Below are positions 10,878 to 64,000 of a stretch of 64,000 nt of DNA, in pieces. The notes beneath the pieces are model-generated. The model ran no database searches. It was not told the origin of the DNA and was given only the letters and a program-made list of their open reading frames with translations. How positions within the stretch are numbered: position 1 is the first letter of the stretch; each line of letters opens with the position of its first letter. The stretch lies in assembly GCF_026151205.1 (NCBI RefSeq), contig NC_087075.1, positions 9,601,303 through 9,665,302 of the forward strand. The letters run 5' to 3'. The position numbers were made by a program, and so were the translations under genes. Origin of the DNA: Bolinopsis microptera. Taxonomy: Eukaryota; Ctenophora; Tentaculata; Lobata; Bolinopsidae.

Positions 10878-10953
10878 ATGGTCGTGCAGCAATTTCTGTT
10901 TAAAGTTCTGCTACTATATTTCATCAGTGGGAACATGGGTGTAGATCCTCAAG
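10878..10953 (+). CDS. Receptor exon 1: signal peptide
   Basis: The ATG at 10878 opens a 25-residue segment with a hydrophobic core (FLFKVLLLYFIS) and polar ending, a typical secretory signal. It stops at a CAAG/GTACGA donor in phase 1. That phase fits the PAN-like exon at 11949, where the split codon becomes Asp. An upstream non-coding exon cannot be excluded. Confidence 0.65.
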
Positions 10954-13900
10954 GTACGAAAGTTTCAGTCTCGGATACCACCAAATCTGTTGGCAAGGAA
11001 CAAATGGTAGTATCGGTATCCAGTTGACAAAAATAACTTTGTTAGTAAAGCCTGTTTGTTCCGATCAGGCATTATTCACATACTTGTGTTTGATAACTTC
11101 ACAGTACGCATACTCGCCTGCATCTACCGACGTTTTTTTTTTAAATCTGAACACTTATTTTACTTCGGACATTCCAACAGCCACATTGTTACACAAGTAT
11201 GTAACCAGCCAATTACAGGAAGCTGAAGGATTCAATTATACATTAGGCCAGTGACGGTTAAGGTAGTGTGTACCATACTTTCTTCGTCCGAGACTTTGCT
11301 GCAATGGGCAGCTCCTCATTTAACACTCACACCCGATTTCTCGAGTATTTGGCTGATTGGACCGGGGGGCTGCATAGACCACTCAGGATCCATAGCTGAG
11401 CGTCGACGACGCTCACCCCACGGCTAGTGACAGAGTCGGGAATCGAACCTGGTACCTCAAGCAATGCCAGGCAGATTAACCAACTGAGCCACTAAGCCGT
11501 TGAAACTTAACTACACAAATACATCATTTTATTTCAAAGAAAATTCGCCGAATGCCCTTACATGCCTTGACAAGTGACCAAGTGTAAACAAAATTAGGGA
11601 CACCGATCAAACACTAGTTGACCAGTAAACTGGTCATAGCAATTACATCGGACCCTATATAAGTGAAGTGATGCTGCAACCAAGGCATGCTAGGTTTATT
11701 CCATTGGACTTATAAGGTTACAGCCTAAAATATAAATATAATAACAATGCACCATAATTATAAACACAATTTATTAAACATATTTTATTAATTACACATT
11801 TATCAATTTTTATTTAGATATGACCTTCACCGTCAACGATACAACGAAAATTCTAAAACTAACTAAAATAAGAATAAGTAATTGGTAACCGCTTTTAGAC
11901 ACTTACGCTCACCCAGTTTTACGCAAACGTATCTATAATCTATTTCAGATAGCAACCGAGGCTGTTATACAAGCTACGAGCAGAATGTTGGTATGTTTCC
12001 GGACTCCCATAAATTAGCACAAAGACAGTTCAGGAGTTTTGAGAGTTGTCAGGAATGGTGTGATGCTAATCCCCGCTGTGAAGGAGTAGCCGTGAGTCCC
12101 GCGTATTGGGCTTACCGAGAGTGCTTTCTGGTGGGCACTACGCACATAACAGCAAGAAGTAGATGGACTGCGAGTTCTCTAACTGATTGTGAGGGTAAAT
12201 TACAAAACACATTTTTCCTTTTTAAGCTCTAGAGTTTTTATCGTGCATGGTTTTCCGTGAGACGACCTTGAGGCACCAGTTTTGAGGCACTGCAGAGGCC
12301 CTTGAGGCACCACTTTGAGGCCCTTGAGGCACCACTTTGAGGCACTGAGGCACCACTTTAGGTCCTTGATGCACCACTTTGAGGCACTGAGGCACTAAGG
12401 CACTTGAGGCACCAAATAACAGATAGTGTAAACACAACACTGCTATCTTATCTTTCTCAAAAAACAGAATCATAAGGCTTGCATTCTGCACCAATTCGCT
12501 CTGTCAAAATCAATACTCCTAAAATAATTTAAATCATATAATATAATTTATATATTATAAAGAAATAAACTTCGGTAACTTAAGTCACGCTTTTTCAACG
12601 AGAACAGGTTAGACTGAGATCGTCTAAGTCTAACCTGTTCTCGTTGAACACAGGCACTCAGTGCCATAAAATGGACGACGTCTGCGAATGATGATGCGCT
12701 GACTCAAGACCAAGGATACACCATCGAGGCGGGATCGTTGGTAGGAAAATCTCAAACACAATTGCAACGGTTTGATTTAACACAATCATCGTGCACTACA
12801 GTTTTTCTTATTTCATTACGTATTTATATTTTACAGCCAAACTTCAAAATTTTTTATGATAACCATCTTCAGAAGTTGAATCAGTAAACAAACAAGTGAA
12901 GAAAGGCTCATATACAACAATATCCTGTGTTATCACTGGGATAACGGAAAGAGCAACAGTGACTTGGCGAACTAGTACAGGACCAGTTCCAAATGAAAAG
13001 TTCACCCCTGTCCAAGGAATCCATTCTGGAGGAACACAAACATCAACTCTTGCTGTAGACGGAACTCTTGTGAATGAAAATACTGCCTACACTTGCAGAG
13101 TGACTTCTGGTTCTTTACCTGATTCCAGCCATTCGGATACCACCGTCAATCTTAACGTATATGGTATGTTCTTTAAACGCTAACAATAAATTTGCACAAC
13201 AATTTTGATAATTTGAGATTGAATTTATACTTACAGCCAAACTTCAAATGCTTTACCATAAATTACTTCAGACGTTGAATCAGTAAACAAAGAAGCGAAG
13301 AAAGGCTCAGATACAACAATATCCTGTGTTATCACTGGATTGACAGAAACAGCAACAGTGACGTGGCGAACTAGTACAGGACCAGTTCCAGATGAAAAGT
13401 TCACCCCTGTCCAAGGAAGCCATTCTGGAGGAACACAAACATCAACTCTTGCTGTAGACGGAACTCTTGTGAATGAAGATACTGCCTACAATTGCAGAGT
13501 GACTTCTGGTTCTTTACCTGATTCCAGCCATTCGGATACCACCGTCAATCTTAACGTATATGGTATGTTCTTTAAACGCTAACAATAAATTTCGATAACA
13601 ATTTTGATAATTTGAGATTGAATTTATATTTTACAGCCAAACTTCAAAATGCTTTATGATAACCATCTTCAGAAGTTGAATCAGTAAACAAACAAGTGAA
13701 GAAAGGCTCATATACAACAATATCCTGTGTTATCACTGGATTGACAGAAACAGCAACAGTGACGTGGCGAACTAGTACAGGACCAGTTCCAGATGAAAAA
13801 TTCACCCCTGTCCAAGGAATCCATTCTGGAGGAACACAAACATCAACTCTTGCTGTAGACGGAACTCTTGTGAATGAAGATACTGCCTACACTTGCAGAG

Positions 13901-16900
13901 TGACTTCTGGTTCTTTACCTGATTCCAGCCATTCGGATACCACCGTCAATCTTAACGTTTATGGTATGTTCTTGGGACTACGGGTGGAAGATGAATAATT
14001 AAAATTCCAACAGCATCTTGTTCCCTTTATTGTACCTTACATCTAGAGTTAACATTAACTTGTGCCTTACATCTAGAGTTAACGTTACATTATTATACCT
14101 TACATCTAAAGTTGACATTATCTTGTACCTTACATCTAGAGTCGAAATTACATTATATCTTACTAGAGAGTTAACATTACTTTATACCTTATAGTTATAT
14201 CTAGAGTTAATATATAACGTTAATATAAAACGATACATTATTGATTATATCTTCCATCTTGATATCGCCATATCAAGCTACCTTACTCGGGAATATTATT
14301 ATTATAGCGGGTTAATTTATGACTGGGAAAATTAATGACCGGGAAAAATATGGCGGAATTTTCCAAAACCCACCAAGCATCAAAATGTATTACTATTACT
14401 ATTAGTTTACCTTACTCGGGAACATTATAGCGGGTTAATTTATGACTGGGAAAATTAATGACCGGGAAAAATATGGCGGAATTTTCCAAAACCCACCACT
14501 TTATCCCAGTCATAATATTCCCGAGTAAGGTAATTAGCGCTAGTAATCGGAAATTTTAAGTTTGCGGAATCTAATTCTAGCTATCGCTAACCTAGTAATT
14601 TCCTTATGAGTTATGACATGGTCATGAACTTATGCAGGCATGTTTTAACTTTTCAATTACTCGGTTGCCGGGCAACGATTTCTAAACTGGAGAATACAAT
14701 TACCTTACTCGGAATTATTATGACCGGGATAAAGTGGTGGGTTTAGGGTAATTTCGCCATATTTTTCCCGAACCACATTTTCACCGGTCGTTAATAAACC
14801 CGCCGTCTCAGCTTTTAGGGTTCCCAAGGGGTATGGGTGCTCATATTTTAATCGTTGTCTTATATTCACTAAAGAAGACTATTGGGACACTTGTTGTAGG
14901 TTTTTCGACTTCATTTGGCTAAAATTGCAAAAAATTCACCTTTTTGCCCAATTCTTGTCATATATCCTTATTGTCAAATTTGATTTAAATAGGCCAATTT
15001 TTAATTTCTTAGGTATTGACTATCTCTACATAATGAAATAGGACTCAAAGTAAAAGTAACAGTTAAATTAAAACTTGAATTAATTAAAACTGATGAAAGG
15101 GATGATCCAGATGAAGATAACGAAGATGATTACAACTTATTGGAAGACTAAACAGCTCTCCCTTTATCTTAATATCGATCTGGTTGTTACGCTTCAAATG
15201 TTAAAAATTATTTTCCATCTAGTTTGATTAACCACGAGTCATTATTTCTGTCTACTTTCAACAATTATTGATAATTCGACTTGTTTCACAAGTTTTAGCA
15301 ATGCGAAAATTTCTAAACTTGCTTATCTCTAATAAGGAAATTTACATCTGAGACAAAATTTTTGAATCTAAAATTGAAAGGTTGGACACCGGTAAAATGG
15401 CGACCGGGAAAATGTGGTGGGTTTTGAGCAATTTCGCCATATTTTTCCCGAACCATATTTTAACCGGTCGTTAATAAACCCGTCGTAATAATCCCGAGTA
15501 AGGTAGCTTACAAATTCTAACCAAAAATGCGAACAGTTTACTTTTAGCAACAAACCATTGTTATTTGACCCAGGAATTTCATTTTAGAGTTGAAAACAGG
15601 AGGATGCAGTCATCTCAAATTTCAAACTGAGTACAAAATGTTCACAAGTCACAATGATACCTGCAAGTACCTGAGAGTACCTACCAGTGGTACCTTTAAT
15701 TCTCTTTGTTACTGTGCAAATCCGTATTACTAACTATCCAGTTTCTTTGAACCCTTTTTTAAATTTTATCAATAAACTTTCAAATTGTTACACAAATACA
15801 TCATTTTATTTCAAAGAAAATTTCGCCGAATGACCTTACATGCCTTGACAAATGACAAGTGACCGAGTGTAATCAAAATTAGGGACACCGAAACACCAGT
15901 TGACCAGTAAACTTCGTTATGTTGTTAGTTTGTCATTGTTGCTCAACTTCGTAAAGGATTTTATTTGATCACGATAACCCAGCAGCTCTATTGTTCAACT
16001 TTATATAAGCGATAATACGGTATTTACGGTATAATATACTATTTCTCCATTTCAAGATATGTAATGAGATATAATCGTAATAAGTCCATGATAAGTTAGA
16101 AGTAAGTAACTCTATTATGATCGTTTGGACTAGTATTTAGTATATTAGTATTTAATATACTAGTATTTAGTAAACTAATAGTATTTAGTATACTTAATAA
16201 ATTAATAGTTGTATTAACAAATAACAAGTTAATGTAAGTAATAACTAGGAGAAGAGCTATTAATTTAAAGTGGTTCCCACCCATCGGTCATGATTTTATC
16301 TTTAACCTGAAAACAAATTAAAAGCTAAAAACGTCTTCTCTAAGAAACATGCCATTACTATTTATATAGCACACATAACGCCGGGACGCACAGAGCCACC
16401 TCTTATTTGTTATTTCATCCTTTAGCAGCATCTCGGAGGAGTTAGTGAACTCATGATGCTGGATCATAAACCCAATTTTACATGAGATTCGCATCAACTG
16501 GTTTGTACGGAATACCGTATCCTAGTAGAACTAGAAGTAGAACCAGGACTTTTGAATAAAAATAATAATTTTACTGCACCACAACAGAGAGATTCAGTAC
16601 TTCATCAGTTTCTTCAAGATCAATCTGATCATATAACTCATCTAATGCAGAGTTTATTTTCAACAGCTGTAAGTCAGGTATTGTGTCAACAGAAAATTCA
16701 TGAATCAACGGTTTAAACATCCGTTTACATTGAGCTTCAATGGAGAAAACGTCCCAGTATTTAACCGTTGCCGAAACCAGTTTCATCCATTTTGTGGCAA
16801 GGTCCGTAGAATTCATGTACACATTTAAAGCCAATTTGGGTGCACTTTTGAAACCCTCTGATTTGGCCTCAGTAATATTTCGAATGTATTCTTTAATATG

Positions 16901-28900: not shown

Positions 28901-30099
28901 GACATATGGTGATGCTTTGCGGAGGGTAGCTTTTATTTCGGCTTGCAGAGATTCCCGAGAGATTTCAGGTCCTCTGCCCAGAAATGAACAGTTACTTAGT
29001 TCAAAGAGATTTCCATCACATTCGTGAGGGCCAAGATCCCTGATCAGATACCGCTTGTACTGAAGACACCCGACATTGGCGTGTTTTGCTGAAATAGACG
29101 TGGCATCACCTTCGGACACGTGACGGGTTCTATCTGAAGTGACAACTAACTGTCCAGCCTTCGGTGTCACTTCTGTGATCATATTTGTGAAGGAATGCCG
29201 CCTGTGCCGTTCCTGGATAATCTGGCGTGGGGAGAGTGACGGCGTGTGTAGAAAATTTTTCAGTGTTTGCTTTACGTTCCTCGATCTGATGCGTGGCACT
29301 GGAGTGATTTCGGGGTCACCATGTCCAGTGTAGAAAGCATCTTTATAAGGTTCAGAGACCATTGGAGTCGAGGGAGTACCAGGGTCTTTCTTCGTGGTAC
29401 TGTTGTCCTCCTCCAATGTGTGAATTAGTATAACTGGTATACTAGGACTAGGAGAAACTGCTGTCGGAGGGGCGTAATCGGCAATTGGCGAAGGAAATGA
29501 TTGATGATCGGGCTCTTGATAGGACAGTGAATGAGTTTCACTGTTTTCGACAATCGTGTCATTATTGGTTCCAGCAATCCAACTTTTAGCATATCCCAAG
29601 ATTTTGAAGAATGATGTTTCAGACATCATGCTAGTGACAGGTTAAACCGGAAGTGAATTAGAGATGTAGTTGACTAGTTTCTTTGTCTTGATACTGATCC
29701 TTACTTTTGAGTCTTTTAGTCGGCACGTGCCTTCCCATATAAACTCAATAATCAGTACAGACATAAGACAACAGACGAATTAAATACAAATATCATAAAA
29801 TCACTATACATAAATTATCGACAATAATCATTACATATCCACATTCTTGAAATATTGAAATCCACTTCCTACAAGATCGGCTTTCTTCTTTTTTAAACTG
29901 CCAATCCTAACTCTAAAAGGCACCTGCATCGTTAGTTCGTGTATCATTGTTAGTTGGTGTAGGTGTATAACAACCACGTGCACTGTGCAGGATTGTTTAC
30001 TTAAGCTTGCAAGTCAATTGTTTATGTTGAGGTGGGTGTTTAGACAGTGGCAACTTCAGGTGCTGTTAACTGATGAGCCAAGTGGTCCGAGTGTTATGT

Positions 30100-30151
<52 letters not shown>

Positions 30152-51100: not shown

Positions 51101-54100
51101 TATAAAGATATTCATATAATAAACCTTGATTTGATTGAACCTCTTATTTAAGCTTTCAAAAGCATACGTCCAGGGTTCAGTCCAATTCTGCTGAAGTTAA
51201 AACTGTACGAAAATCCAGAAATATAGAATTAAAATGCTATCTTGATAAAATAACTTCCAAACTTAACTTCTTCAAGAGTCACCTGACACCAACAGTACTT
51301 TTACTAATATTACAACTTTACAATCAGTTCCAAATGATATATATCTCAGTAACAGTAAACAATCGTAGGTGTTGGTTGGATTACCAAGCGAGGATGGCTG
51401 CATTTATGCTACCCCTCCTCCTCATCCTCTGTGCTAATTTCGTGGTCTTTATCCTGGTTATGAGAGTCCTGTTTGCTAGCAAAAAGAGTGCTACCGCCAT
51501 CAACAAGTATTATTCATTATTTTAAATAGAAAAAATTTGATCATGATATCATGTTATCATTTGAAAGCATCAAAGATATCAAGATGACACATTAAATTAA
51601 CAATACTATTGTTATGAAGTGGCCGCGTCACTCGCTTCGTGTCTCCTTAACCAAACAACCTGCAAACAAATCAATACAACCTCAGAACCCAGTGGTTGGC
51701 CAGGCTCAGATCCGCTGTTGCTGTGTCAACCCTCATTGGGTTGTCGTGGATACTAGGATTCTTCGCTCTGGGAGAGGCTAGCTTCGCTATCAACATTATC
51801 TTTGCTCTGTGTAACAGTTTACAGGTTAGACATTTCTCTTTTTTTAATTATTTTTTCGATGCAATTTTATTAGGCCTTATTATATCATCCGTCTTTAATT
51901 CTGGTAATATTGATAGAATATGCAAGTTTAATTTTAATTCATACTGTTCTTGCAAAAACAAAACCTTATGCTTTCTTTATAGAAGCTCCTTTAGCTTTGG
52001 CCGGAAATCTCTACTTTTATATTTCCAGGGAGTCCTCATATGTTATTTATACTGCTTTGCAAAGAACGACGTGATGACAAAATGGCGGTCTACTATTCAG
52101 ACTAGCTTTGGTAAATCAAGTAAAGGTAAGTTTACCATCATTAGAATTGTTTAGTACATATTAGTAATTATCATGGCTTTCTATTCAGCATTAATACACA
52201 TTAGTTATCATTGTGATTGTGAAATATTTTGTCTCTTTCCAGATCGATCTCCTGACAACATAATATCACTCACACAAGATTAATACTTACTCTAAAAGTA
52301 TTCATGTTTAATATTGAACAACGAATCTGTTCGTGTTTTTCCAACCGTATCATGCGCCACATTGTTCACCTGTAACCGAGTAATCAGTGACCAGTAACTC
52401 TCTCAACAATGAGATTTGCTGGGTTTACTGAGGCCTCATGAGACTTGCAACCGTGTTACCATGACCCGTGTAATCATGGGATCCACAGAGACTGAATCAG
52501 TTAAAATCGTTAATATTGGCTCCTGTAACTCACTAATTCTGTAACCGGCAATAATGCGAGAATAGTCAACTTGGTTATACTTCTTTCTAATTAAAGTGTA
52601 ATAATAGTAAATGAAATGTCAATTTGTATAATTACAAGCCAATCCTAGGAACGTAAGAGGCTTTGTAAACTCAACCGATGTGACAATTATAATTATATTT
52701 TGTAAACTATTTATATACTAATAAAAAAGTTTACATTTTTAAAAGTCATACTGATTACCTTTCAGACGCAAGCGGATTTTCAACCTCTCACTCAGGAGCC
52801 CCCAGACCCCAGAACAGGTAACTATGATAAAACATTCCTGAGGGATAGAGGTGGTATTTGAGAGTGAGAACTTGTAGTGCTAGTTTTAAAACAGAAATGT
52901 GGTTCGGATAAAAAACACATTTATATTGTCAACTCTACATTTCCTAAATCTCGAAACCTACCAATTGCATGATCCTTAAAACTTGCATACTAACTAATCA
53001 TTCTTTATAACGTCCATCATGGGTTTAACACTTTAAACCTGTTGTCTCCACTGCAGCTGTCGCCAATATATATAAGGGATAAATAGCGATTAGTATACAA
53101 TAATGATAATACATTACTCAGGTTCAACACCGGTGCTAACACGAGCAAGACCACGTCTCTCGCACTCTCAAGCTCCAACACTACCAGTGTGACTGTTCCA
53201 AACACTGAGAAGAACGGCACGGGCAAATTCGCTAATGTTTACTCCAATGTGAGTATACTCGTATATGCAGTGGTTATAAATGCTAGTGATAGTGACAAAA
53301 AATGAGTTGATTGTTATTTAACCGTTCGCCATGGCATGTCGAATGTGCATCGTGCATGTTAATTTTTGAAAGAACGAAAATATTACGTTCCGTCACATTA
53401 AGGCTGATGTTTTTGAACGGTATTAATGTATTATTCATGCTTGTGACATGCTCTTTTAATTTTGCACGGAAGCATTGAATGTTCAGATTTAACATCCCTA
53501 GACACTTAGTAGCCAGAGATTAAACCTAAACTAAAGCAAAACTGTATAATATAAAACATTTTTTAACAATGAAACAACCTTTACCCGACTTATACAGCAC
53601 AATCGACGATGTGGCCCTCAAGTTTTAATGTGCAAAGGCTGGCCATATAATCATTCGCCTCCCCGACTTAGTTATCTGGTATTGCGATTGTTTGAGATCG
53701 TTTATAGGTGTGGACATATATTTAGGACTCCGGGGTCAAGGGTGGGTGCCTGAATTTGGGGCGCATAGTCGTGGTAGGGTGTAGTATAAATAAAGATTTG
53801 AAAACCTTTTTCGATGTGCAGGTAGATGATAATTCCCATGTCTACAAACGCTTGCCTGGAAATGAGGCATCAAGGTTCGGATGTGAAAATATCGATCAAT
53901 GAATTCTGTTCTTTTAAATGTTGCAAATGATTTTGGTGACAATTTTATGACTGATTTTCCTGACTGAATTCAGTAGGCGCTTAAGGCTTTTTAAGTTTTT
54001 AAACCAAAAACAATCGTTTCTATTACCAAGTATTTGCAACATGTTTGATTGTCCGCTGGGCGCTGATCACTTGATGTTTGTTATCTAATCATTAACGATT

Positions 54101-55075
54101 TTCATATGACTTTATATTCTGAAGTGCTTTACATCCTTTCCTTTCCTTTCCTTTCCTTTCCTTTCCTTTCCTTTCCTTTCCTTTCCTTTCCTTTCCTTTC
54201 CTTTCCTTTCCTTTCCTTTCCTTTCCTTTCCTTTCCTTTCCTTTCCTTTCCTTTCCTTTCCTTTCCTTTCCTTTCCTTTCCTTTCCTTTCCTTTCCTTTC
54301 CTTTCCTTTCCTTTCCTTTCCTTTCCTTTCCTTTCCTTTCCTTTCCTTTCCTTTCCTTTCCTTTCCTTTCCTTTCCTTTCCTTTCCTTTCCTAACCAATT
54401 GGTCATTTTTTAATCACAATTTCTTTCATCCCTGAAGTATTTTTGTTGATATATCATATACTGTCTTCAGAAATATTTGTAAGCATGATAAATGGCTTTC
54501 AAATATTTCCAATTTAAGCTGCATGAATTATATCAATATGTAACAATGTGGCAATTTAGTCCATATTATCAAGTTACTATTTAAAACTTAATAATTAAAA
54601 CTGCTGATATTGTTTCTGTTGCTTGCATCAAACTAACAAGTGATCAGATATAACCCAGGAGGTATCAATCTCCCTGAACGAGGTGAAGGAGAAAGAGCCC
54701 CACTACCACCAAGAAGATCCAGTCTACTCTGACATCCCCCAATCTGACCACGAGGTTGAAGATGACCACATCTACGAAGACTTTGTACCTGACACACGCC
54801 CCGTCTTGCGGAGGAGAGATGAGCAGCCCACACCTGAAGAGGAGGAAAAGAGGAAGACCATCACCCTGTCCAGGAACCTGCAGGGACAGCTGGTCAGGGA
54901 GAAGGTTCAAACATTTGAGGGGATTATCCAAGGAGCTGAGGTGGTGGTGACATGTCCAGCAGATAACCAGAGTGGTGGTAAGACATGTCCTGATCAGGGT
55001 GATCCTAGTGCCTCGTTTCAGATTAAATCTGGTAGTGGCGCTTCTGGGGACAGCAAATCTCCTTTTGATTTGTGA
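10878..55075 (+). CDS. Adhesion G protein-coupled receptor, full model of 38 coding exons
   Basis: I chained exons with GT-AG sites and matching phases: 10878-10953, 11949-12194, 12873-13163, 13272-13562, 13673-13963, 35570-35669, 35816-35973, 38887-39039, 39500-39664, 39835-39921, 40082-40275, 40479-40598, 40973-41138, 41349-41495, 41706-41829, 41956-42191, 42474-42647, 42917-43084, 43218-43519, 43770-43986, 44246-44382, 44856-44964, 45166-45303, 45579-45781, 46056-46255, 46422-46432, 46523-46747, 47071-47259, 47486-47611, 47786-47895, 48091-48194, 48475-48581, 50248-50400, 50659-50758, 51369-51506, 51686-51824, 52029-52125, 52766-52817, 53122-53248, 54659-55075. They sum to 6588 nt, an open frame of 2195 aa. 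The architecture (Ig modules, furin site, HRM, GAIN/GPS, 7TM) recalls vertebrate group VI receptors such as ADGRF5, but orthology is not claimed. The product should be a plasma-membrane receptor, self-cleaved at the GPS, with a tethered agonist. The 13963-to-35570 join and 46422-46523 are the least certain. Confidence 0.75.
11290..11502 (-). mobile_element. tRNA-derived SINE
   Basis: Read on the minus strand from about 11502, the sequence has TGGCTCAGTTGG, a good Pol III A box, and about 40 nt later GGTTCGATTCC, a good B box, within a tRNA-like head beginning GGCTTAGTGGCTCAG. A unique body follows to about 11290. The acceptor stem is not preserved as in a working tRNA, so a SINE is more likely. 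It lies in receptor intron 1. Confidence 0.7.
11508..11640. repeat. Dispersed repeat R1, copy 1
   Basis: A block of about 130 bp containing ACACAAATACATCATTTTAT, AATTCGCCGAATG and CTTACATGCCTTGACAAGTG. It recurs in the same orientation at 15783-15915 and inverted at 63886-64000. Copy 1 directly adjoins the SINE. No coding potential; probably part of a larger transposon whose ends I cannot place. Confidence 0.8.
11949..12194 (+). CDS. Receptor exon 2: PAN/apple-like domain
   Basis: The exon, phase 1 at both ends, codes about 82 residues beginning DSNRGCYTSYEQN. The Cys pattern (RGCYTS, FESCQEWCDANPRCEGVAVSP, RECFLVG, DCEG) with an aromatic-rich centre resembles PAN/apple or WSC-type modules that bind carbohydrate or protein. 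As the first folded module after the signal peptide it would be the outermost part of the receptor. Confidence 0.7.
12266..12412. repeat. GAGGCAC minisatellite
   Basis: A degenerate unit near 20 bp built on TTGAGGCACCACTT repeats seven or eight times with indels, inside the intron after the PAN exon. The minus-strand open frame across it is a by-product of the repeat. Confidence 0.85.
12594..12648. repeat. 22-bp perfect inverted repeat next to an exon remnant
   Basis: The arm at 12594-12615, containing GAGAACAGGTTAGACT, pairs exactly with 12627-12648 around an 11-nt loop. In intronic RNA it would form a strong hairpin. It ends just before the CACAG that precedes the decayed Ig remnant. Confidence 0.9.
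12654..12745 (+). pseudogene. Decayed Ig-exon remnant
   Basis: One frame reads IKWTTSANDDALTQDQGYTI and then EAGSLVGKSQTQLQ. This aligns by eye with the VTWRTSTG...TPVQG...SGGTQTSTL part of the three Ig exons downstream. It lacks the first Cys strand and the C-terminal YxCxV strand. The preceding CACAG acceptor in phase 1 would reach a stop, so it is not usable in the model. It looks like an older copy of the same module. Confidence 0.5.
12873..13163 (+). CDS. Receptor exon 3: Ig domain 1
   Basis: A 291-nt exon in phase 1-1 codes a single Ig-like domain: KKGSYTTISCVITG gives the B-strand Cys, VTWRT the core Trp, and TAYTCRVTSG the F-strand Tyr-x-Cys. It is followed by LNVYG and a GTATGT donor. 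As a symmetric exon it can be skipped or duplicated without breaking the frame. Confidence 0.85.
13272..13562 (+). CDS. Receptor exon 4: Ig domain 2
   Basis: This is 291 nt, phase 1-1, nearly identical to exons 3 and 5. Differences include DVESVNKEAKKGSDTT at the start, ITGLTETATVTW, and TAYNCRV in place of TAYTCRV. The Ig Cys pair and Trp are kept. The introns on both sides are short and also repeated. Confidence 0.85.
13673..13963 (+). CDS. Receptor exon 5: Ig domain 3
   Basis: Third copy of the Ig exon, 291 nt, phase 1-1, with the same Cys, Trp and Cys core. It ends at ATG/GTATGT, after which the sequence diverges from the repeat unit. In the model it splices across 21.6 kb to 35570 with matching phase. 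An alternative is that this exon belongs to a shorter separate gene whose end I did not find. Confidence 0.8.
14028..14215. repeat. Minisatellite (ACCTTACATCTAGAGTTAAC)n
   Basis: Around five or six imperfect copies of a 30-40 bp unit, built on ACCTTACATCTAGAGTTAAC followed by ATTA-rich spacer, lie in receptor intron 5 just after the Ig cluster. No coding potential. Confidence 0.8.
14279..14532. mobile_element. MITE family B, partial copy plus full 125-bp copy
   Basis: A complete small element at 14408-14532 has ends TACCTTACTCGGGAA and TTCCCGAGTAAGGTA. It is preceded at 14279-14407 by a direct repeat of its left half. Both contain GACTGGGAA, GACCGGGAA and TATGGCGGAATTTTCC blocks. The nesting suggests abortive transposition or replication slippage. 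Confidence 0.85.
14701..15505. mobile_element. MITE family B, 805-bp copy
   Basis: The left end TACCTTACTCGG and right end CCGAGTAAGGTA are inverted. Subterminal blocks GACCGGGA, TTTCGCCATATTTTTCCCG and ACCGGTCGTTAATAAACCCG appear near both ends, as two direct copies (14760-14815 and 15425-15485). No transposase is seen in the AT-rich middle. Confidence 0.8.
15506..16570. repeat. Intronic DNA with dispersed repeat R1 copy 2
   Basis: 15783-15915 repeats the R1 block seen at 11508 in the same orientation. 16130-16200 is an A/T-rich tandem of TAGTATTTAGTATAC-like units. 16430-16570 is the 3' flank of the sulfotransferase gene, duplicated at 19558-19723. No further gene seen. Confidence 0.7.
16571..17857 (-). 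CDS. Carbohydrate sulfotransferase (Gal/GalNAc/GlcNAc 6-O type), intronless
   Basis: The 428-aa frame is a type II membrane protein: a short basic N-terminus, a transmembrane anchor at about 8-26, a stem, then a lumenal catalytic domain. The 5'-phosphosulfate loop is AAFRSGSTFL (R84-T88). The 3'-phosphate motif is LLRHPVALMMSRR (R224, S232), both as in the GST/CHST family that transfers sulfate from PAPS to C6 of sugars in the Golgi. Length and single-exon structure match family members. Several N-x-S/T sites are present. It lies nested and antisense in receptor intron 5; its 3' end is duplicated about 3 kb away. Acceptor sugar cannot be told from sequence alone. Confidence 0.92.
   Translation of the reverse strand: MKSEGWRLIAAFLAGCLWISLLSFCLRQPTKQTVEVEYASKFIDVDTKTQSMASSIPHRPSQDPAFNLKLNPNKKLIIIVAAFRSGSTFLGNLFDNNPTMQYLFEPFHNAHIRNLRDRNGLFGARPDHTESDLRMLYLQQMLHNCTIYPTPFHHQYAWCGSKEENLLRFNSTECGGRKIPGSQQEICRYRDTTVIKVIRLADLSDILKIAQIRSANVKIIQLLRHPVALMMSRRTGGEFFMWDIKTNVELVAGDINQRRIKIAWEAFNYCNDHLKAMELVESDPWLKDRYLRVTHHGMSLKPLETAEKVYSFVGATLTDHIKEYIRNITEAKSEGFKSAPKLALNVYMNSTDLATKWMKLVSATVKYWDVFSIEAQCKRMFKPLIHEFSVDTIPDLQLLKINSALDELYDQIDLEETDEVLNLSVVVQ
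18271..18571. repeat. Dispersed repeat R2, copy 1
   Basis: About 300 bp beginning GCAGAAACCCGTATAACCCT and ending near TATATCGTCTCGCTTAG. The inverse of this sequence lies at 62339-62643, similar over almost the whole length. No inverted termini or open frame are visible, so the class is unknown. Confidence 0.85.
18762..19465. mobile_element. MITE family A, copy 2
   Basis: Ends TACCTTATCGGACCTTATT and GGTCCGATAAGGTA match copy 1 at 2925. Subterminal GTCCG arrays and the phrases TTTTTGATGGTTTTGAATGCC and CTAGCGTT are shared, whereas the middle is shorter and different. It lies in receptor intron 5. Confidence 0.85.
19558..19723 (-). pseudogene. Duplicated 3' end of the sulfotransferase gene
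   Basis: The block shares TCTCGGAGGAGTTAG, CATAAACCCAATTCTACC-like sequence, AACTGGTTTGTAC, GTAGAACCAGGACTTTTGAA and TGCACCACAACAGAG with 16432-16612. That covers the 3' flank and last codons of the sulfotransferase. The catalytic part is absent. It is a partial segmental copy, not a gene. Confidence 0.85.
19724..20495. other. Intronic DNA, nothing identified
   Basis: AT-rich sequence without convincing exons, transposon ends or RNA genes on either strand. Confidence 0.45.
20496..20671. repeat. 20-bp minisatellite, about nine copies
   Basis: The 20-bp unit AGCCACCACCCGACAGCCTC repeats almost without change; one copy reads CCTAAG instead of CCTCAG. High uniformity implies recent expansion. 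No reading frame begins before it. Confidence 0.95.
20672..21400. other. Intronic DNA, no gene
   Basis: Somewhat more C-rich than its neighbours up to about 20900, otherwise plain. No open frame of note or repeat ends were found apart from the target site of the next element. Confidence 0.45.
21401..21550. mobile_element. hAT MITE, 150 bp, with 8-bp target duplication
   Basis: The left end CAGGGACAAAAGGA and right end CCTTTTGTCCCTG are inverted, and GTGGGAAC flanks it on both sides (21393-21400, 21551-21558). CAG-type ends with an 8-bp duplication are diagnostic of hAT elements. The body carries repeated TCGCG motifs (TTTCGCGG, ATCGCGAT). It is too short to code. Confidence 0.92.
22023..25697 (-). 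CDS. LINE ORF2: endonuclease-reverse transcriptase, 1224 aa
   Basis: The N-terminus is an AP-type endonuclease: SWNIN (about 15-19), LQETK (E49), GDMNAR (D163, N165), YSDHRPIS (D277, H278). The reverse transcriptase follows (about 550-840) with PLHKKG, NYRAITV, LGFRAG, VDYRKAFDTV, GTEQGHPMSPELF and the catalytic LWADDLILL (W780-D783; Trp replaces the more usual Tyr or Phe). The C-terminus has a Cys/His cluster (CRFCC...EEHCLTECPMY, about 1122-1158). There is no RNase H. The ATG overlaps the ORF1 stop by 8 nt, suggesting reinitiation. It would nick target DNA and copy the element RNA into it. Confidence 0.95.
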   Translation of the reverse strand: MNSPPKMRHSLKLMSWNINHQRDKFEGVKFEIDEVQKLIAGHDIVCLQETKGQVSMREFKCFNANRSDSNSGGVCTAIRKHLAAGVVRVHFSKCDDILIVKLKAKYFNLDKDLNLINVYDSPAHGSYKKRMRSKMEQYTTTCEHLEECLSNIPDSEDAAILGDMNARTGTLNDFLIPCESRDLQVELDPPQHSISPTEVASRNNQDRILNSNGKPFIELLQTTGMIILNGRTIGDIFGSPTCIQRNGVSTVDYICVSHSLLHRARFFKVGDLTPYSDHRPISTTLTTNIRNIVMAGDISNEMELKFASIPKPFKWTKDACSGLGTTEKFKSAQNTAQFKEKVDSLLQTDISSPDDIRSFNEIVIATFTNLASQVTTQKSGKPSTNKNKWFDWSCRHAKRLVCRDERAKNNTHIDPMLVESNRARFYLRKKEYRAQTRARKGAYLYKLNEKINLSNNINWAALKDLSSACKDPDTFDIYDLIAFHKFFNDLYNQKCKDPSHGGLQTNTSTNEAGEQGTEYHLEPSVELEKLNTEFTIQELEKVTNKLQNNKSVSCDLISNEMLKSSKLGFQKVLLKLFNGCLTQGIYPWNCSITTPLHKKGDKQNPDNYRAITVGSCLGKLFASLLLDRLIEFRKVVCPDFPHQLGFRAGAQCSDHILTLTTIIEKYTKKLKKKIFACFVDYRKAFDTVCREALMYKLSRLGIGGSFFSCLQNMYSNSVTRIKLSKKLSDTIDVTIGTEQGHPMSPELFKVYIYDLSIRLAALEDLSIPELNGFPVSHLLWADDLILLALDAKSLQKQLDCLHEFASKWELSINIDKTKIMVFNSSSRLLKCSYGFKLGNLDISSAKSYCYLGIQFSLNGSFKGAMNELRKKALRAFFSIRRMVDTRALTTKTMLKLIDSLVKPVATYTCQIWLPCTKMAKEMACADGSRQNLARAATKDALETTHLKMLKWVLGLHKKANNNFYYGDTGRLPWALSVLPQCLRYFDRLSQTSPDVSSVNFLVHQTFQEQKNLNLSWYKTWNSIAQSESKAAKFARSDQHRAEGTTSTAHGNLVDHFVKDWRTDLASQKKMQFYCTIKQVFGEEQYLNLKNSQCRMHIAKIRSSSHDLLIERGRYTKETGTWTRACRFCCNKDNVQGLEYLPFFEGTIIENEEHCLTECPMYHSARLSLSENLKSLLLLKEYGAIMNSAHVQELGKFLCNCHRIRNPKKTPILPVTPSGLPTQQT
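25690..27465 (-). CDS. LINE ORF1: coiled-coil protein with SGNH-esterase-like domain, 591 aa
   Basis: A basic N-terminus (EVRRRKKGKV) is followed by a long helical, Leu- and Gln-rich stretch at about 100-270, likely coiled coil, then a polar linker. Residues 395-560 look like the SGNH/GDSL esterase domain known in ORF1 of CR1-group LINEs: LLIHDSNF (S402), a YVHTGIND block (N455), and DQNFYTSNEGFKL where the family usually has Asp-x-x-His. The His appears missing, so catalysis is doubtful. The C-terminus is Arg-rich, suited to RNA binding. Start may lie further in, since 128 nt overlap the upstream ORF in another frame. Confidence 0.85.
   Translation of the reverse strand: MDLCLVTLIPNFNLVLPRINLALEVRRRKKGKVAQKEKGKKGSNNTSPRVPLGPHQNSLVAPDTGSLLSANGPTTEINDDMETAGDMPLKGHLISTECSQCSELKAAVTVLQDSIITLKEEMLQQKAISDLIISSPTASDKKLEVLVAKKLSPIEDKVNQLRADLNLLREAVDEQNNTLNLVANTRTQSSPDLRAELANCFNKLEATNIANRRQFETLELGQDNLKKAVKSVANTAKNQSQATAEELKGELNLAFQSFETVSSSNRTRIEALEVNHESLTQALTSSPQPPANHKPARRDTPASVDDTNRESEQGILWSKIVENGGSETFTTSNKKNSKNHKENVPVPATRQDNRSESKHSETTASEAQPNQPSREAKESRNKSSSRIRESYRQHTVLLIHDSNFDHFNPKLFNSQFNVHCLKFDSYEDTTKKTKLLNSTIKRLKPECIYVHTGINDLLKKKSGLVSIVEEFSEHRMNTTKAQICFSGLIPSSNDKALNERISIVNKDVEDYVSWLHKHKPVAKDRIFTFQNDSIGDQNFYTSNEGFKLRERGKKMLWVRLREGMRKTMRLPRVSYQPKDRSRRSTNRFRDE
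27338..29629 (-). CDS. LINE-associated upstream ORF (ORF0), 763 aa, unknown function
   Basis: An open frame of 763 codons lies directly upstream of ORF1 on the same strand. It is rich in Ser, Thr and Pro, with a more ordered centre (about 190-430) holding hydrophobic strands such as LPFVILHIGK and NYSLITVFPEA and several Cys (VGCLQYK, HECDGN, FWCPD). It ends in a nuclear-localisation-like run (SAKKKKRESRTERKRKKG). I recognise no domain. Gag-like or regulatory roles are possible. It overlaps ORF1 by 128 nt in the +1 frame; translation of ORF1 may use reinitiation or a shift at the A-rich end. That it belongs to the LINE is inferred from orientation, overlap and openness. Confidence 0.75.
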   Translation of the reverse strand: MMSETSFFKILGYAKSWIAGTNNDTIVENSETHSLSYQEPDHQSFPSPIADYAPPTAVSPSPSIPVILIHTLEEDNSTTKKDPGTPSTPMVSEPYKDAFYTGHGDPEITPVPRIRSRNVKQTLKNFLHTPSLSPRQIIQERHRRHSFTNMITEVTPKAGQLVVTSDRTRHVSEGDATSISAKHANVGCLQYKRYLIRDLGPHECDGNLFELSNCSFLGRGPEISRESLQAEIKATLRKASPYVSPGHAKAVSTELFWCPDVINKLTNDNKISQSPTTTSSPLTAVAENGGSMENLLVSINHHVRAITKQEVMFNGLQLIYSFDRTSRIPLKNRHKNDNLPFVILHIGKPRDLSVTPLRFNPAVEVTEVCDVSLGNYSLITVFPEASQNLHLFFSPEMNSLSRKDEQVLIVPFIEKNVDMQTSAELPIQIMQHSNPAAPASIEDIATTKVEISLAKVESLGIEEDYLATKEVTTAEPSTTKLKSPLSESPDMKPLDVQLDQPVIPLHEIDNTAAESLPLRISSCSQKSEDTQKQTTKATPDDTSHNESFADEEVDHTDPSLDKGSSITLKYITLDLLKRAANSNKKSSLSTLMTSLGLKGSNNVSLNKKKLCDLLENCESTGSKNTVKLLTHLINKLEETVIRMELLANYLPLSLSAQERKKALISFCSNQCSGNSNAIKLVFENPGEDDQSNSTRNILQLHNTPSLRDQPSPHDSGDYVTPDGPLSGNTDTKFQFGTPKDQSCTRSAKKKKRESRTERKRKKG
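29651..31356. repeat. Intronic DNA with a (TG)n microsatellite
   Basis: About 24 TG units lie at 30102-30149. The part nearest 29650 may be the LINE 5' untranslated region. I see no other gene, exon or transposon end. Confidence 0.7.
31357..31866. mobile_element. MITE family C (TACCTTACAAGACATATTTA termini)
   Basis: The left end TACCTTACAAGACATATTTA and right end TAAATATGTCTTGTAAGGTA are exact inverses. Near each end lies a block with TTTCGCCATATTTTCGGACC, GCCAAAATTT and GGTCGTCG. The first seven bases match MITE families A and B, and TTTCGCCATATTTT is shared with family B. No open frame. Confidence 0.88.
31867..35569. other. Rest of receptor intron 5, nothing identified
   Basis: About 3.7 kb of AT-rich DNA. 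Short open frames (for example 33703-33927) lack splice-site, codon or motif support. I found no transposon ends, tRNA-like boxes or tandem arrays. Confidence 0.45.
35570..35973 (+). CDS. Receptor exons 6-7: Ig domain 4, split
   Basis: Exons 35570-35669 and 35816-35973 join in phase 2 and are bounded by phase 1, so the pair is again a symmetric module. It reads DQCTAASKGIFLSEGKG and so on, with VEAGDAGVYKMNHE as the Ig-type DxGxYxC-like F strand; the canonical F-strand Cys is replaced (YKM). A later Cys in ASCFSVLIV may substitute. Domain assignment is moderate. Confidence 0.7.
36156..38822. mobile_element. piggyBac-like foldback element, 2.67 kb, TTAA flanks
   Basis: TTAA lies immediately outside both ends (36152-36155, 38823-38826). 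The ends are CCCATTAGGGACG and its inverse CGTCCCTAATGGG, the style of piggyBac elements. Long inverted arms of about 0.7 kb run inward and match closely up to the inverse pair near 36898 and 37870. Eleven copies of GGGTC-N6-GACCC or one-base variants lie in the arms. No transposase is visible. It lies in the intron between the Ig 4 exon and the next linker exon. Confidence 0.88.
37110..37265. mobile_element. Small nested MITE-like insert
   Basis: GGGGCCGTTCATATATTACG occurs at 37120-37142 and an inverted partner ending CCGATTACGTAATAC near 37240-37256, with a C-run and mixed AT between. It sits in the centre of the piggyBac-like element. Similar ends are found on short elements in other animals, but class is not certain. 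A 16-G run lies nearby at about 37356. Confidence 0.4.
38887..39664 (+). CDS. Receptor exons 8-9: linker and Asp/Glu-rich module
   Basis: Exons 38887-39039 and 39500-39664, all phase 1, code about 106 residues. The first is helical and charged (EFSKIVELLPDLEKMMEYLR). The second looks beta-rich (FEIRGKSYTLNPDKVDLIYD...FDVSFKITVS) and may be part of a small beta sandwich. Neither matches a family I can name. Confidence 0.65.
39835..39921 (+). CDS. Receptor exon 10: LDL receptor class A-like module
   Basis: The exon reads CSPQKTRCNGEPECDDFSDE then KGC. The C-N-G-x-x-x-C-D-D-x-x-D-E-x-x-C pattern is the calcium-binding half of an LDLa repeat. The first two Cys of a full six-Cys module are missing, so it is a shortened form. 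Phase 1-1. Confidence 0.8.
40082..41138 (+). CDS. Receptor exons 11-13: pentraxin/LamG-like segment 1
   Basis: Exons 40082-40275, 40479-40598 and 40973-41138 give about 160 residues. The strands IKFPSPLEDHTVCFFTF, GHYCVVVQNLKVTTYIYG and IIVYNKVLTATEM, the last like the iWnrvLs ending of concanavalin-type domains, suggest a pentraxin or laminin-G fold. The final exon runs on into a helical part with MCGQEGYPAAADLF. Assignment is by pattern only. Confidence 0.6.
40828..40950. repeat. AT-rich and ATATGCACT microsatellite
   Basis: TATA-rich sequence passes into four or more copies of the 9-mer TATGCACTA just before the acceptor of exon 13 at 40973. The short distance to the branch region may influence splicing. 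Confidence 0.8.
41349..42191 (+). CDS. Receptor exons 14-16: Cys-rich stalk, possibly lectin-like
   Basis: Exons 41349-41495, 41706-41829 and 41956-42191. The first holds an acidic, six-Cys stretch (YLCDSG, NHCESESDSYCDDS, EEECQYF). The other two contain NEYNNRLGVQAIS, DCTTSTCTTKAYL and a VHLNRDGSWEVEE stretch ending KGTLLCDV. That last part vaguely recalls a C-type-lectin ending. The last donor could be at 42187 or 42191; the GTAAGT at 42191 is the better consensus. Confidence 0.6.
42474..43519 (+). CDS. Receptor exons 17-19: pentraxin-like domain 2
   Basis: Exons 42474-42647, 42917-43084 and 43218-43519. Strands LTMCWAASGSGVLLQYSG, GTYFCLRWEKITGRIDLAVN with GKLIVG, then GIMVVGAGI and FSGQ-like WSGQINNLVIWNRFFNP follow the order of pentraxin/LamG domains, including two Cys in the usual strand positions. 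This is the clearest beta-sandwich domain outside the Ig cluster. It would serve as a ligand-binding part of the ectodomain. Confidence 0.75.
42765..42873 (+). mobile_element. LINE 3'-end fragment with (TAG)n tail
   Basis: A GC-richer stretch including GAACCCTGATGCGGGACAGG, ATCGGACTTAGTCCCGACAT and TCACA is followed by seven TAG triplets. This matches the 3' end and triplet tail of several animal LINEs. It is dead on arrival (5' truncated) and sits in an intron of the receptor. Confidence 0.6.
43770..44964 (+). CDS. Receptor exons 20-22: furin-type site and unknown module
   Basis: Exons 43770-43986, 44246-44382 and 44856-44964. The first begins GPQRRKRQDEE: RRKR is a good furin or proprotein-convertase site on a polar stretch. 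The following 150 residues appear beta-rich with two Cys (STLCFSG, NKICITN) and could be SEA-like or another Ig-like fold. No firm match. The position just before HRM and GAIN parallels a proprotein cleavage site in some vertebrate adhesion receptors. Confidence 0.65.
44383..44585. repeat. 8-bp minisatellite at a splice donor, with donor copy
   Basis: The 8-mer CACTGTAA or TACTGTAA repeats about 18 times immediately after the exon 21 donor (CTCTCC/GTGAGTAG). After the array, the exon edge recurs as ACCCTCTCCGTGAGTA near 44568-44583. A second, cryptic donor thus exists downstream. Confidence 0.9.
45166..45781 (+). CDS. Receptor exons 23-24: HRM-like hormone-receptor motif
   Basis: Exons 45166-45303 and 45579-45781 join in phase 1. 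The order ISC...VWPATLQTGVVSTTC...ATRTCEPNGWSSERDTSAC follows the HRM pattern: a Trp-Pro, then spaced Cys, then ATRxC-x(3)-GW-x-C. HRM modules precede GAIN in several adhesion receptors. The rest of exon 24 is helical and starts the GAIN domain (EYFNDITDITEENVDEFTNT). Confidence 0.78.
46056..47895 (+). CDS. Receptor exons 25-30: GAIN domain with GPS
   Basis: Exons 46056-46255, an 11-nt microexon 46422-46432, 46523-46747, 47071-47259, 47486-47611 and 47786-47895. The helical subdomain A is followed by the beta-rich subdomain B (SVIKIKRD, VWFTSYQK, STLFVSDTNF) and the GPS: LCQYWDMKDG, WSSEGMTF, IMCEASHLTNFAIL. The HL/T autocleavage triad is intact, so self-cleavage is expected, with TNFAIL as the tethered agonist start. 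The acceptor before 46523 lacks a pyrimidine tract; 46514 is an in-frame alternative. The acceptor at 47486 is also weak. Confidence 0.85.
48091..52125 (+). CDS. Receptor exons 31-37: seven-transmembrane region
   Basis: Seven exons (48091-48194, 48475-48581, 50248-50400, 50659-50758, 51369-51506, 51686-51824, 52029-52125). Segments in order: IITIGGCILSIIGLLATIIG (TM1), HIGLSVSLLLAYIFLLIG (TM2), VHFCFLSAFCWMLCEAINLY (TM3, the classic HF-FLS-FxWM-xE pattern), a TM4 split across exons, VVCWLDYQ in extracellular loop 2, TM5, TLIGLSWILGFFAL (TM6) and ALCNSLQGVLICYLY (TM7). These are family B2 hallmarks. Phases are consistent throughout. Long introns hold an hAT element and palindromic repeats. Confidence 0.92.
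48292..48474. repeat. Palindromic tandem repeat at the exon 32 acceptor
   Basis: The palindrome ACTCTAACTAAGTTAGAGT occurs four times, with the following CTAACCCCCTATCTCAACA. The last copy supplies the acceptor CTATCTCAACAG used before TM2. Repeat period is mostly near 57 bp. The splice site is therefore itself part of the tandem unit. Confidence 0.88.
48830..50182. mobile_element. hAT-like non-autonomous element, 1353 bp
   Basis: ACCCATCC flanks both ends (48822-48829, 50183-50190), an 8-bp target duplication. The left end CAGAGGCACATATTAGGTGC and right end (inverse starting CATGGGCACATATTAGG) match. Subterminal zones carry many TGCGG motifs. The core is a large minisatellite. A minus-strand 81-codon frame near 49200-49441 is too weak to be called a transposase. 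It lies in a receptor intron between TM2 and TM3. Confidence 0.9.
49427..49958. repeat. 23-bp minisatellite inside the hAT element
   Basis: The unit GGGCCTGGGTCACGGTCCCG plus AAA recurs about 20 times with point changes. A longer phrase adding ACGTGGCCTAAGCATGAGTT and CCAAAA recurs four times, so there is higher-order structure. It is much GC-richer than its surroundings. Confidence 0.92.
52243..52283 (+). CDS. Alternative terminal exon: short receptor tail
   Basis: TCTCTTTCCAG precedes an exon in the right phase (1) that codes DRSPDNIISLTQD and stops at 52281-52283. Used after exon 37, it gives a receptor with no long cytoplasmic tail. The competing acceptor at 52766 has the same phase, so the choice would be by alternative splicing. 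Confidence 0.6.
52766..55075 (+). CDS. Receptor exons 38-40: long cytoplasmic tail
   Basis: Exons 52766-52817, 53122-53248 and 54659-55075 code about 198 residues. It is Ser/Thr/Pro-rich, then acidic, with Tyr in FANVYSNEV, DPVYSDIPQ and DHIYEDFV, set in acidic context suited to SH2-type binding after phosphorylation. The two latter Tyr are 16 residues apart. The end is SPFDL, which fits a class II PDZ ligand. The stop is TGA at 55073-55075. A long intron before the last exon carries a pentamer microsatellite. Confidence 0.8.
54135..54391. repeat. (TTTCC)n microsatellite, about 51 units
   Basis: A perfect run of the pentamer TTTCC of about 257 bp, in the last intron about 270 bp before the final exon. 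Both strands are open in several frames simply because of the repeat; no protein is implied. Confidence 0.98.
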
Positions 55076-63885: not shown

Positions 63886-64000
63886 TAGTAAGGTGCACAT
63901 AGGTCCCTAATTTTGTTTACACACTCGGTCACTTGTCAAGGCATGTAAGGTCATTCGGCGAATTTTCTTTGAAATAAAATTATGTATTTGTGTAACAATT
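63886..64000. repeat. Dispersed repeat R1, inverted copy, cut by the window end
   Basis: Inverse of the block at 11508-11640: TAGGTCCCTAATTTTGTTTA, CACTCGGTCACTTGTCAAGG, CATGTAAGGTCATTCGGCGA and onward to the window edge. Its true end lies outside. Confidence 0.8.

Follow-up and report, generated by a model that had tools for sequence, protein, structure and literature searches.

Results

The exon chain

The window, by which we mean the whole 64,000-nucleotide stretch analysed (C4:9601303-9665302 of its own genome), carries on its forward strand a five-exon block with PAN-like and Ig exons (10878-13973) and, beyond a gap that holds antisense elements, the gene of an adhesion GPCR (aGPCR; Table 1). 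Forward frames of the exon-bearing regions were inspected by eye, a splice-site and codon gene finder was run, and a chain was assembled by hand that is phase-compatible and free of stops from the ATG at 10878 to the stop at 55075 (39 exons, 2190 aa). Shifting the acceptor of exon 26 from 46527 to 46575 on paralogue evidence brought it to 2174 aa. A preliminary description of the locus had proposed a single frame of 38 exons and 2195 aa, arguing that a total divisible by three and stop-free supports the chain. Such a chain could be re-derived, its junction from 13963 to 35570 being putative. The argument itself is circular, because compatible junctions were chosen. In addition, 23 of the 38 introns are of phase 1, so that the phase match at the exon 5/6 junction is weak evidence.

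Trained on seed ORFs, the gene finder placed seven exons within the gap (six of them inside the LINE) and failed to find most of those encoding the 7TM. For scoring, the LINE, the sulfotransferase ORF and several tandem repeats were replaced by filler and the training set was the chain later scored, which makes this comparison circular; the retrained gene finder returned 38 exons, with exon 34 absent and exons 21 and 27 ending earlier than in the hand-built chain, and used acceptor 46575 for exon 26. Codon statistics trained on exons 20-39 were applied to exons 1-19 (at most 150 nt from the start of each) and compared with 400 random open pieces. At most 20 of the 400 scored as high for 10 of the 19 exons, 22-31 did so for exons 6, 8, 13, 15 and 17, and 73-127 for exons 1, 2, 11 and 19. 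Scans for tRNAs and Rfam families gave no matches, and a search for relatives in viral_contigs and genome_contigs confirmed none.

The window's own genome (264652675 bases, 232 contigs) contains a paralogue of the receptor on the minus strand at C4:8760-8775 kb. Both phases and the splice consensus are kept there for 22 of the 27 exons compared (exons 10-36; per-exon search, exon windows picked from BLAST matches), which backs the exon structure of this part of the chain. In the same search, phases differed at exons 16, 20, 25 and 27 and exon 19 was not found; protein matches in the paralogue exist for all five. No counterpart of exons 6-9 was recognised in the paralogue, which is therefore a weak guide to the N-terminus; exon 6 has no second copy in the genome. 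An alignment with ADGRG2 runs from the last part of exon 27 through exon 36, binding those exons together, and the Pfam matches of 7tm_2, GPS, Pentaxin and HRM cross exon junctions.

Table 1. Features at the locus (window positions) and tandem Ig exon arrays elsewhere in the genome (contig positions)
Feature	Position	Strand	Support
Exon 1, ATG and signal-peptide-like segment MVVQQFLFKVLLLYFISG..., phase-1 donor	10878..10953	+	strict signal-peptide-exon rule passed
Exon 2, six-cysteine PAN/MANEC-like, phase 1-1, dispersed family member	11949..12194	+	
Relic of another Ig exon (internal part only), phases incompatible with chain	12644..12757	+	
Exon 3, Ig domain 1, array-type	12873..13163	+	Pfam
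Exon 4, Ig domain 2	13272..13562	+	Pfam
Exon 5, Ig domain 3	13673..13963	+	Pfam
Sulfotransferase-like ORF, 429 codons, uninterrupted, in gap	16574..17860	-	Pfam
LINE (non-LTR retrotransposon), in gap, antisense	22023..29641	-	Pfam for one frame
Exon 6 (half of previously proposed Ig4; Pfam support absent)	35570..35669	+	chain, codon test
Exon 7	35816..35973	+	chain, codon test
Exon 8	38887..39039	+	chain, codon test
Exon 9	39500..39664	+	chain, codon test
Exon 10, LDLa C-terminal two-thirds	39835..39921	+	Pfam; paralogue exon 64% identical
Exon 11 (previously proposed pentraxin 1; Pfam support absent)	40082..40275	+	chain, paralogue
Exon 12	40479..40598	+	chain, paralogue
Exon 13	40973..41138	+	chain, paralogue
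Exon 14, cysteine-rich	41349..41495	+	chain, paralogue
Exon 15	41706..41829	+	chain, paralogue
Exon 16, C-type-lectin-like by eye only	41956..42191	+	paralogue phase-in differs
Exon 17, pentraxin part 1	42474..42647	+	Pfam, paralogue
Exon 18, pentraxin part 2	42917..43084	+	Pfam, paralogue
Exon 19, pentraxin part 3	43218..43519	+	Pfam; per-exon paralogue search found none
Exon 20, furin-type RRKR site, then further segment	43770..43986	+	chain; paralogue phase-in differs
Exon 21	44246..44382	+	chain, paralogue
Exon 22	44856..44964	+	chain, paralogue
Exon 23, HRM part 1	45166..45303	+	Pfam, paralogue
Exon 24, HRM part 2	45579..45781	+	Pfam, paralogue
Exon 25, GAIN region, helical by eye	46056..46255	+	chain; paralogue phase-out differs
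Exon 26, GAIN region	46575..46747	+	paralogue-corrected acceptor
Exon 27, GAIN region	47071..47259	+	chain; phases differ in per-exon paralogue search
Exon 28, GAIN/GPS part 1	47486..47611	+	Pfam, paralogue
Exon 29, GPS part 2, HL/T cleavage site, tethered-agonist-like TNFAILI	47786..47895	+	Pfam, read directly
Exon 30, TM1	48091..48194	+	7tm_2, paralogue
Exon 31, TM2	48475..48581	+	7tm_2, paralogue
Exon 32, TM3	50248..50400	+	7tm_2, paralogue
Exon 33, TM4	50659..50758	+	7tm_2, paralogue
Exon 34, ECL2 CWL triad and TM5	51369..51506	+	7tm_2, paralogue; skipped by gene finder
Exon 35, TM6	51686..51824	+	7tm_2, paralogue
Exon 36, TM7	52029..52125	+	7tm_2, paralogue
Exon 37, cytoplasmic tail	52766..52817	+	chain
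Exon 38, cytoplasmic tail	53122..53248	+	chain
Exon 39, cytoplasmic tail and stop	54659..55075	+	chain
Tandem Ig exon array, C2	17435879-17445779		
Tandem Ig exon array, C4	4787167-4868953		
Tandem Ig exon array, C7	7248771-7251469		
Tandem Ig exon arrays, C11	17413698-17446280 and 20713889-20808191		
Tandem Ig exon array, C13	1234941-1239425		

Domains of the receptor

Judged from its sequence, the right-hand gene is a real adhesion GPCR (class B2), as it combines a 7tm_2 domain with a GPS that contains HL/T. Exons 30-36 matched 7tm_2 (PF00002) with 117.8 bits (cut-off 20.6; 6.1e-34) over positions 3-250 of the 250-position profile. GPS (PF01825) was matched by exons 28-29 with 40.9 bits as a segment (cut-off 22.5; 1.1e-9 in a two-part scan), and the HLT cleavage site is present in translated exon 29. 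Upstream, Pentaxin (PF00354; exons 17-19) reached 29.0 bits as a segment (cut-off 25; 7.1e-6 in the two-part scan). HRM (exons 23-24) scored 29.6 bits as a segment (cut-off 26.2) and 23.8, below cut-off, in the long scan; Ldl_recept_a (exon 10) scored 31.8 bits as a segment (cut-off 24.1) and 23.5 in the long scan, its match covering positions 12-37 of the 37-position profile only. Within the putative GAIN region, PDB matches extend into the GAIN domains of ADGRF1, L3 and G3; a Pfam GAIN match is absent. The best PDB relatives were ADGRG2 (136.3 bits), ADGRL3 (130.4), ADGRD1 (128.0) and ADGRG6 (120.5), and bit scores of this kind do not separate subfamilies G, D and L.

The second and fourth GPS cysteines are replaced by M and A in the receptor and by M and S in the paralogue, with HL/T kept in both. 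These two residues form a pair in known GAIN domains, so that one whole disulfide would be lost here; four GPS cysteines are usual in adhesion GPCRs, not definitional. The motif RRKR in exon 20, which we take to be a furin-type site as the preliminary description did, is absent from the paralogue (protein match read).

Exons 6-7, 11-13, 14-16 and 20-22 gave no meaningful Pfam match, and a PDB search with the pentraxin-to-HRM stretch as query returned 0 matches. Several candidate modules were dropped: a fourth Ig domain in exons 6-7 (no Pfam match, no significant likeness to the third), a first pentraxin in exons 11-13 (no Pentaxin or LamG match; BLASTP to the second pentraxin, E 0.40), a C-type lectin domain in exons 14-16 (neither a Pfam C-type lectin nor a PDB match) and a SEA domain in exons 20-22, which had no Pfam match at E up to 10 and might be a diverged SEA. 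Of the modules proposed initially, 7TM, GPS, HRM and LDLa (two-thirds of it) are borne out by Pfam, HRM and LDLa only as segments; one of two pentraxin-like segments (the second) and three of four Ig domains survive the same check, and the PAN, fourth Ig and first pentraxin modules do not.

Amplified exon families in the upstream block

Three stretches in exons 3-5 matched C1-set/Ig with 54.4 bits (1.6e-14, two-part scan); exon 5 alone reached 23.8 bits for C1-set (cut-off 21), with Ig_3 and I-set below their own cut-offs. Exon 2 reached no PAN cut-off (PAN_4 at most 17.0 bits against 27, PAN_1 at most 15.9 against 21.4), and PAN was therefore dropped as an established Pfam domain; we refer to the exon as PAN-like. 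Both exon types belong to large families in the window's own genome.

The PAN-like exon gave 35 matches at E up to 10. Fifteen close copies, the window's included, are free of stops at 62-100% identity and lie at 13 places on nine contigs; the 14 besides the window's own are 62-88% identical. Of nine others that were read, six share intron sequence on both flanks with one another. In the three tandem copies at C4:7.16 Mb the likeness covers the exon and little of the upstream intron; the window copy shares the exon and the 3' flank with other copies. One copy adjoins an F5/8-type-C domain, and others have unassigned sequence as neighbours. The six cysteines are invariant in 9 of 9 aligned sequences, among them a 31%-identical one from a locus on contig C11. 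When four other family members were scanned, three matched PAN models below cut-off and one had no match. Across ten copies, amino-acid differences occur at 29 of 71 codons and purely silent ones at 9; one position takes four different residues and another five, and mean dN and dS are 0.097 and 0.131 (45 pairs); the family could be diversifying.

The Ig exon yielded 790 first-look candidates. The best 150 of these were scored: all are at least 86% identical and 149 are without a stop, the window's three included, and the family may comprise at least 150 and perhaps several hundred copies. Tandem arrays with a period of about 400 or 466-472 bp occur on five contigs (Table 1). Among 29 distinct array exons read on C2, C4 and C7, a count limited to full-length, stop-free exons matching all 97 residues, an AG acceptor precedes all 29, with a GT donor in 28 and a GC donor in one. 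Next to the C2 array, in the same orientation, lie further Ig exons and an SRCR domain (7.9e-13); array and neighbours would together form one gene. A CUB-like stretch was noted by eye upstream of this array.

Parts of the window's block match sequence on C2. Positions 12644-12757 are 95.6% identical over 114 bp to the middle of an Ig exon that precedes the C2 array; directly beside them, from 12755 onward, the window is about 91% identical to sequence that starts 846 bp further along C2. The adjoining matches look like the result of an internal deletion. Resemblance to the array unit breaks off at 13973, 10 bp past the end of exon 5, and 12644-13973 as a whole gives the appearance of a rearranged fragment of an Ig-array locus. 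The piece at 12644-12757 was tried as an exon of the chain and dropped, its phases not fitting.

Read from sequence alone, the block 10878-13973, which supplies the first 400 residues of the chain, is a patchwork of exons whose families are dispersed or amplified in tandem; being phase 1-1, such exons can be inserted without a frameshift. Compared with 11 other copies, the window's Ig exons show a dN of 0.038, a dS of 0.13 and a dN/dS of about 0.29 (33 pairs); among these 11 copies dN is 0.020 and dN/dS 0.17 (55 pairs). A dN about twice that among the other copies, an Ig relic cut at both ends with an internal deletion, and surroundings rich in repeats would all suit non-functional debris, that is, remnants of an Ig-array gene together with a PAN unit, deposited before the aGPCR. 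We regard this as unlikely, given that exons 1-5 contain no stop, that each of the three Ig exons is exactly 291 nt long and that a signal-peptide-like exon is in place.

The gap between exons 5 and 6

The distance from exon 5 to exon 6 is 21606 bp, 7 times the next-largest intron of the chain (2913 bp; median of all 38 introns, 264 bp). In a Pfam scan of eight frames from the window, inside and outside the gap, three matched reverse transcriptase, one sulfotransferase and four nothing. The sulfotransferase-like ORF reached 6.6e-8 for Sulfotransfer_3 and 1.2e-6 for Sulfotransfer_1, both above cut-off. In the LINE, the minus-strand frame 22026-25745 (1240 codons) matched RVT_1 (2.7e-26) and Exo_endo_phos (4.8e-12); two more long frames of this region, up to 29641, had no Pfam match and were attributed to the LINE by position. 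Antisense LINE frames cover about 7.6 kb of the gap.

Exon 1 satisfies our strict signal-peptide-exon rule, and nothing between 13964 and 35569 does (ten block shuffles averaged 0.7), nor does any start in 33.8 kb of non-coding plus strand, a stretch that overlaps the gap. Applied to the 25.5 kb that precede the LDLa exon of the paralogue, the same rule finds three start sites; it is therefore no proof that block and receptor are united. At a middle setting the gap holds 6 candidates (4.7 in shuffles, 3 on the opposite strand), at the loosest phase-1 setting 25 (10.7 and 7). With the loosest any-phase setting, 43 of the 46 candidates listed for 29700-35569 lie in or start beside a TG repeat.

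A single gene of 44 kb and 39 exons, running from signal peptide, PAN-like module and three Ig domains to the 7TM and enclosing the sulfotransferase ORF, in antisense orientation, within an intron of 21.6 kb, is quite possible, if somewhat short of an even prospect. The chain is phase-compatible and without stops, the strict rule is passed by exon 1 and by nothing in the gap, and the Ig exons keep open frames at the dN/dS given above. Five terminal exons were found after exon 5, the best of which (19552-19649, score 6.3) is short and sits in a repeat that recurs at 16428-16508. Two genes also scored lower than one (358 against 367), a small difference from a simple gene finder trained on the chain. 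At a locus on contig C11 (17328001-17338000, minus strand), moreover, a PAN-like exon, 33% identical in the BLAST alignment and not recognised as PAN by Pfam, lies some 5.3 kb 5' of GPS (4.0e-5) and 7TM exons; no exon chain was built there. By coordinates only, PAN-like matches lie 3.9-8.3 kb 5' of a same-strand 7TM match at two further places on C11 and two on C3. The C11 locus makes a PAN-aGPCR fusion plausible in this genome and is no demonstration for the window's gene.

Against a single gene stand the size of the gap, with the antisense ORF and LINE inside it, and the mosaic, partly broken nature of the upstream block, whose exon families are spread through the genome. In the paralogue, the 25 kb that precede the LDLa exon gave no PAN or array-type Ig match. 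Phase agreement is little informative, and the retrained gene finder starts at 10935 and so omits the signal peptide that exon 1 offers under the strict rule.

Alternatively, the PAN-Ig exons may form a short gene of their own (10878-13998), secreted or truncated, followed by an aGPCR whose first exon went unrecognised; we find this two-gene reading possible and rather doubtful. Reading through the donor of exon 5 leads to a stop at 13996-13998 with ATTAAA at 13998, which is the best left-hand gene, and the antisense ORF would lie between the two. A first-exon candidate at 32154, one of the three away from the TG repeat, combines a strong phase-1 donor (3.9) with a weak hydrophobic stretch, and in the paralogue a relaxed signal-peptide candidate lies 1.7 kb upstream of LDLa. 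The lack of a strict signal-peptide exon in the gap and the good donor retained at exon 5 speak against two genes.

Repeats elsewhere in the window

Inverted repeats of about 590 bp (36287-36875 and 37874-38465, 97% identical) lie in the intron between exons 7 and 8, with no ORF above 76 aa between them. A second pair, 352 bp long and 96% identical, lies at 7837-8188 and 8828-9179; a 161-codon minus-strand frame without Pfam match (8375-8857) lies between these repeats and reaches into the second. The last intron contains a perfect TCCTT array (54134-54392, 51.8 copies). Two reverse transcriptase frames were found at 873-2499 on the minus strand (RVT_1 1.4e-18 for one; 8.1e-6, below cut-off, for the other). 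Copies of a short dispersed repeat, 88-95% identical, occupy 11512-11631, 15783-15913 and 63903-64000, and one of them adjoins a tRNA-like SINE near 11410-11500, as judged by eye.

Discussion

In our judgement the locus is probably best explained by an aGPCR gene at 35570-55075 and a mosaic exon block at 10878-13973, with splicing between them left to one junction. That at least one transcript splices the block into the aGPCR seems to us conceivable, though with slightly less than even confidence. Still more tentatively, we propose that phase 1-1 extracellular exons (PAN, Ig) are mobile amplifying modules, pieces of which still land before genes, this aGPCR among them, so that ectodomains would have been recently reassembled.

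The receptor gene would comprise exons 6-39, about 1776 residues with an uncertain true first exon, and probably works in the ordinary mode of its family. Its predicted layout is LDLa, cysteine-rich modules, pentraxin, furin-type site, HRM, GAIN/GPS, 7TM and a long tail. By analogy with the family, the region from LDLa to pentraxin likely binds a matrix or cell-surface ligand. Furin may cut after the pentraxin, at RRKR, and the GAIN domain would cleave itself at HL/T, as in known aGPCRs; loss of the N-terminal part would then expose TNFAILI as a tethered agonist and switch on the 7TM. In human ADGRG6, a furin-type cleavage is reported in the region after the pentraxin (PMC6954182), and the CWL triad in ECL2, which is present in exon 34, is described as key in ADGRF5 (PMC9489211).

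What the locus means depends on that junction. Should the PAN-Ig block prove to be part of the receptor transcript, the locus would show exon shuffling in progress in an adhesion GPCR. Otherwise, it is a warning that phase-chaining of open frames fuses neighbours where phase-1 extracellular exons abound. Either way, the PAN and Ig families offer a countable system for receptor ectodomain diversification, probably in an early-branching animal.

The preliminary description had found the module order unusual relative to vertebrate receptors. This comparison was too narrow: a 2008 study reported amphioxus aGPCRs that carry Ig (I-set), LDLa or C-type lectin modules (PMC2246102), sponge aGPCRs carry Ig, EGF, fn3, SRCR and HRM (PMC4302439), and HRM-GAIN-7TM combined with varied ectodomains is described as older than animals (PMC12716839; PMC13197933). 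Mixed ectodomains are therefore common outside vertebrates, which leaves PAN as the unusual element; no description of an adhesion GPCR with a PAN domain was found in the literature searched. The receptor, as we see it, has the standard aGPCR machinery and modules that are arranged in a partly new way, a view offered with some reserve since the headline architecture hangs on one junction.

Closest in layout are ADGRG6 and ADGRG4, in which, as here (PF00354 and the HRM segment), a pentraxin precedes HormR, GAIN and 7TM (PMC6954182; PMC10687090). In ADGRG6 of human and mouse the furin-cut region likewise lies between pentraxin and HormR (PMC6954182). Unlike these two, the receptor here has no CUB or SEA match in Pfam, lacks two GPS cysteines and carries LDLa and further modules, possibly PAN and Ig, before the pentraxin. 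Pentraxin-like domains are reported for ADGRD1, D2, G4 and G6 (PMC10687090), so that ADGRD1 and ADGRD2 share this feature, and ADGRD1 is also a near-top PDB match. The added Ig and LDLa modules are shared with the amphioxus aGPCRs (PMC2246102), which probably represent a different lineage.

As for the Ig exons, the literature surveyed on ctenophore Ig domains and ctenophore adhesion GPCRs names no such arrays. Neither ADGRD1 nor ADGRD2 is known to contain Ig, LDLa or PAN. In arthropod Dscam, Ig exons are tandemly duplicated. The arrays described here resemble Dscam in their tandem Ig exons and differ from it in that the copies are closely similar and the arrays lie at several places.
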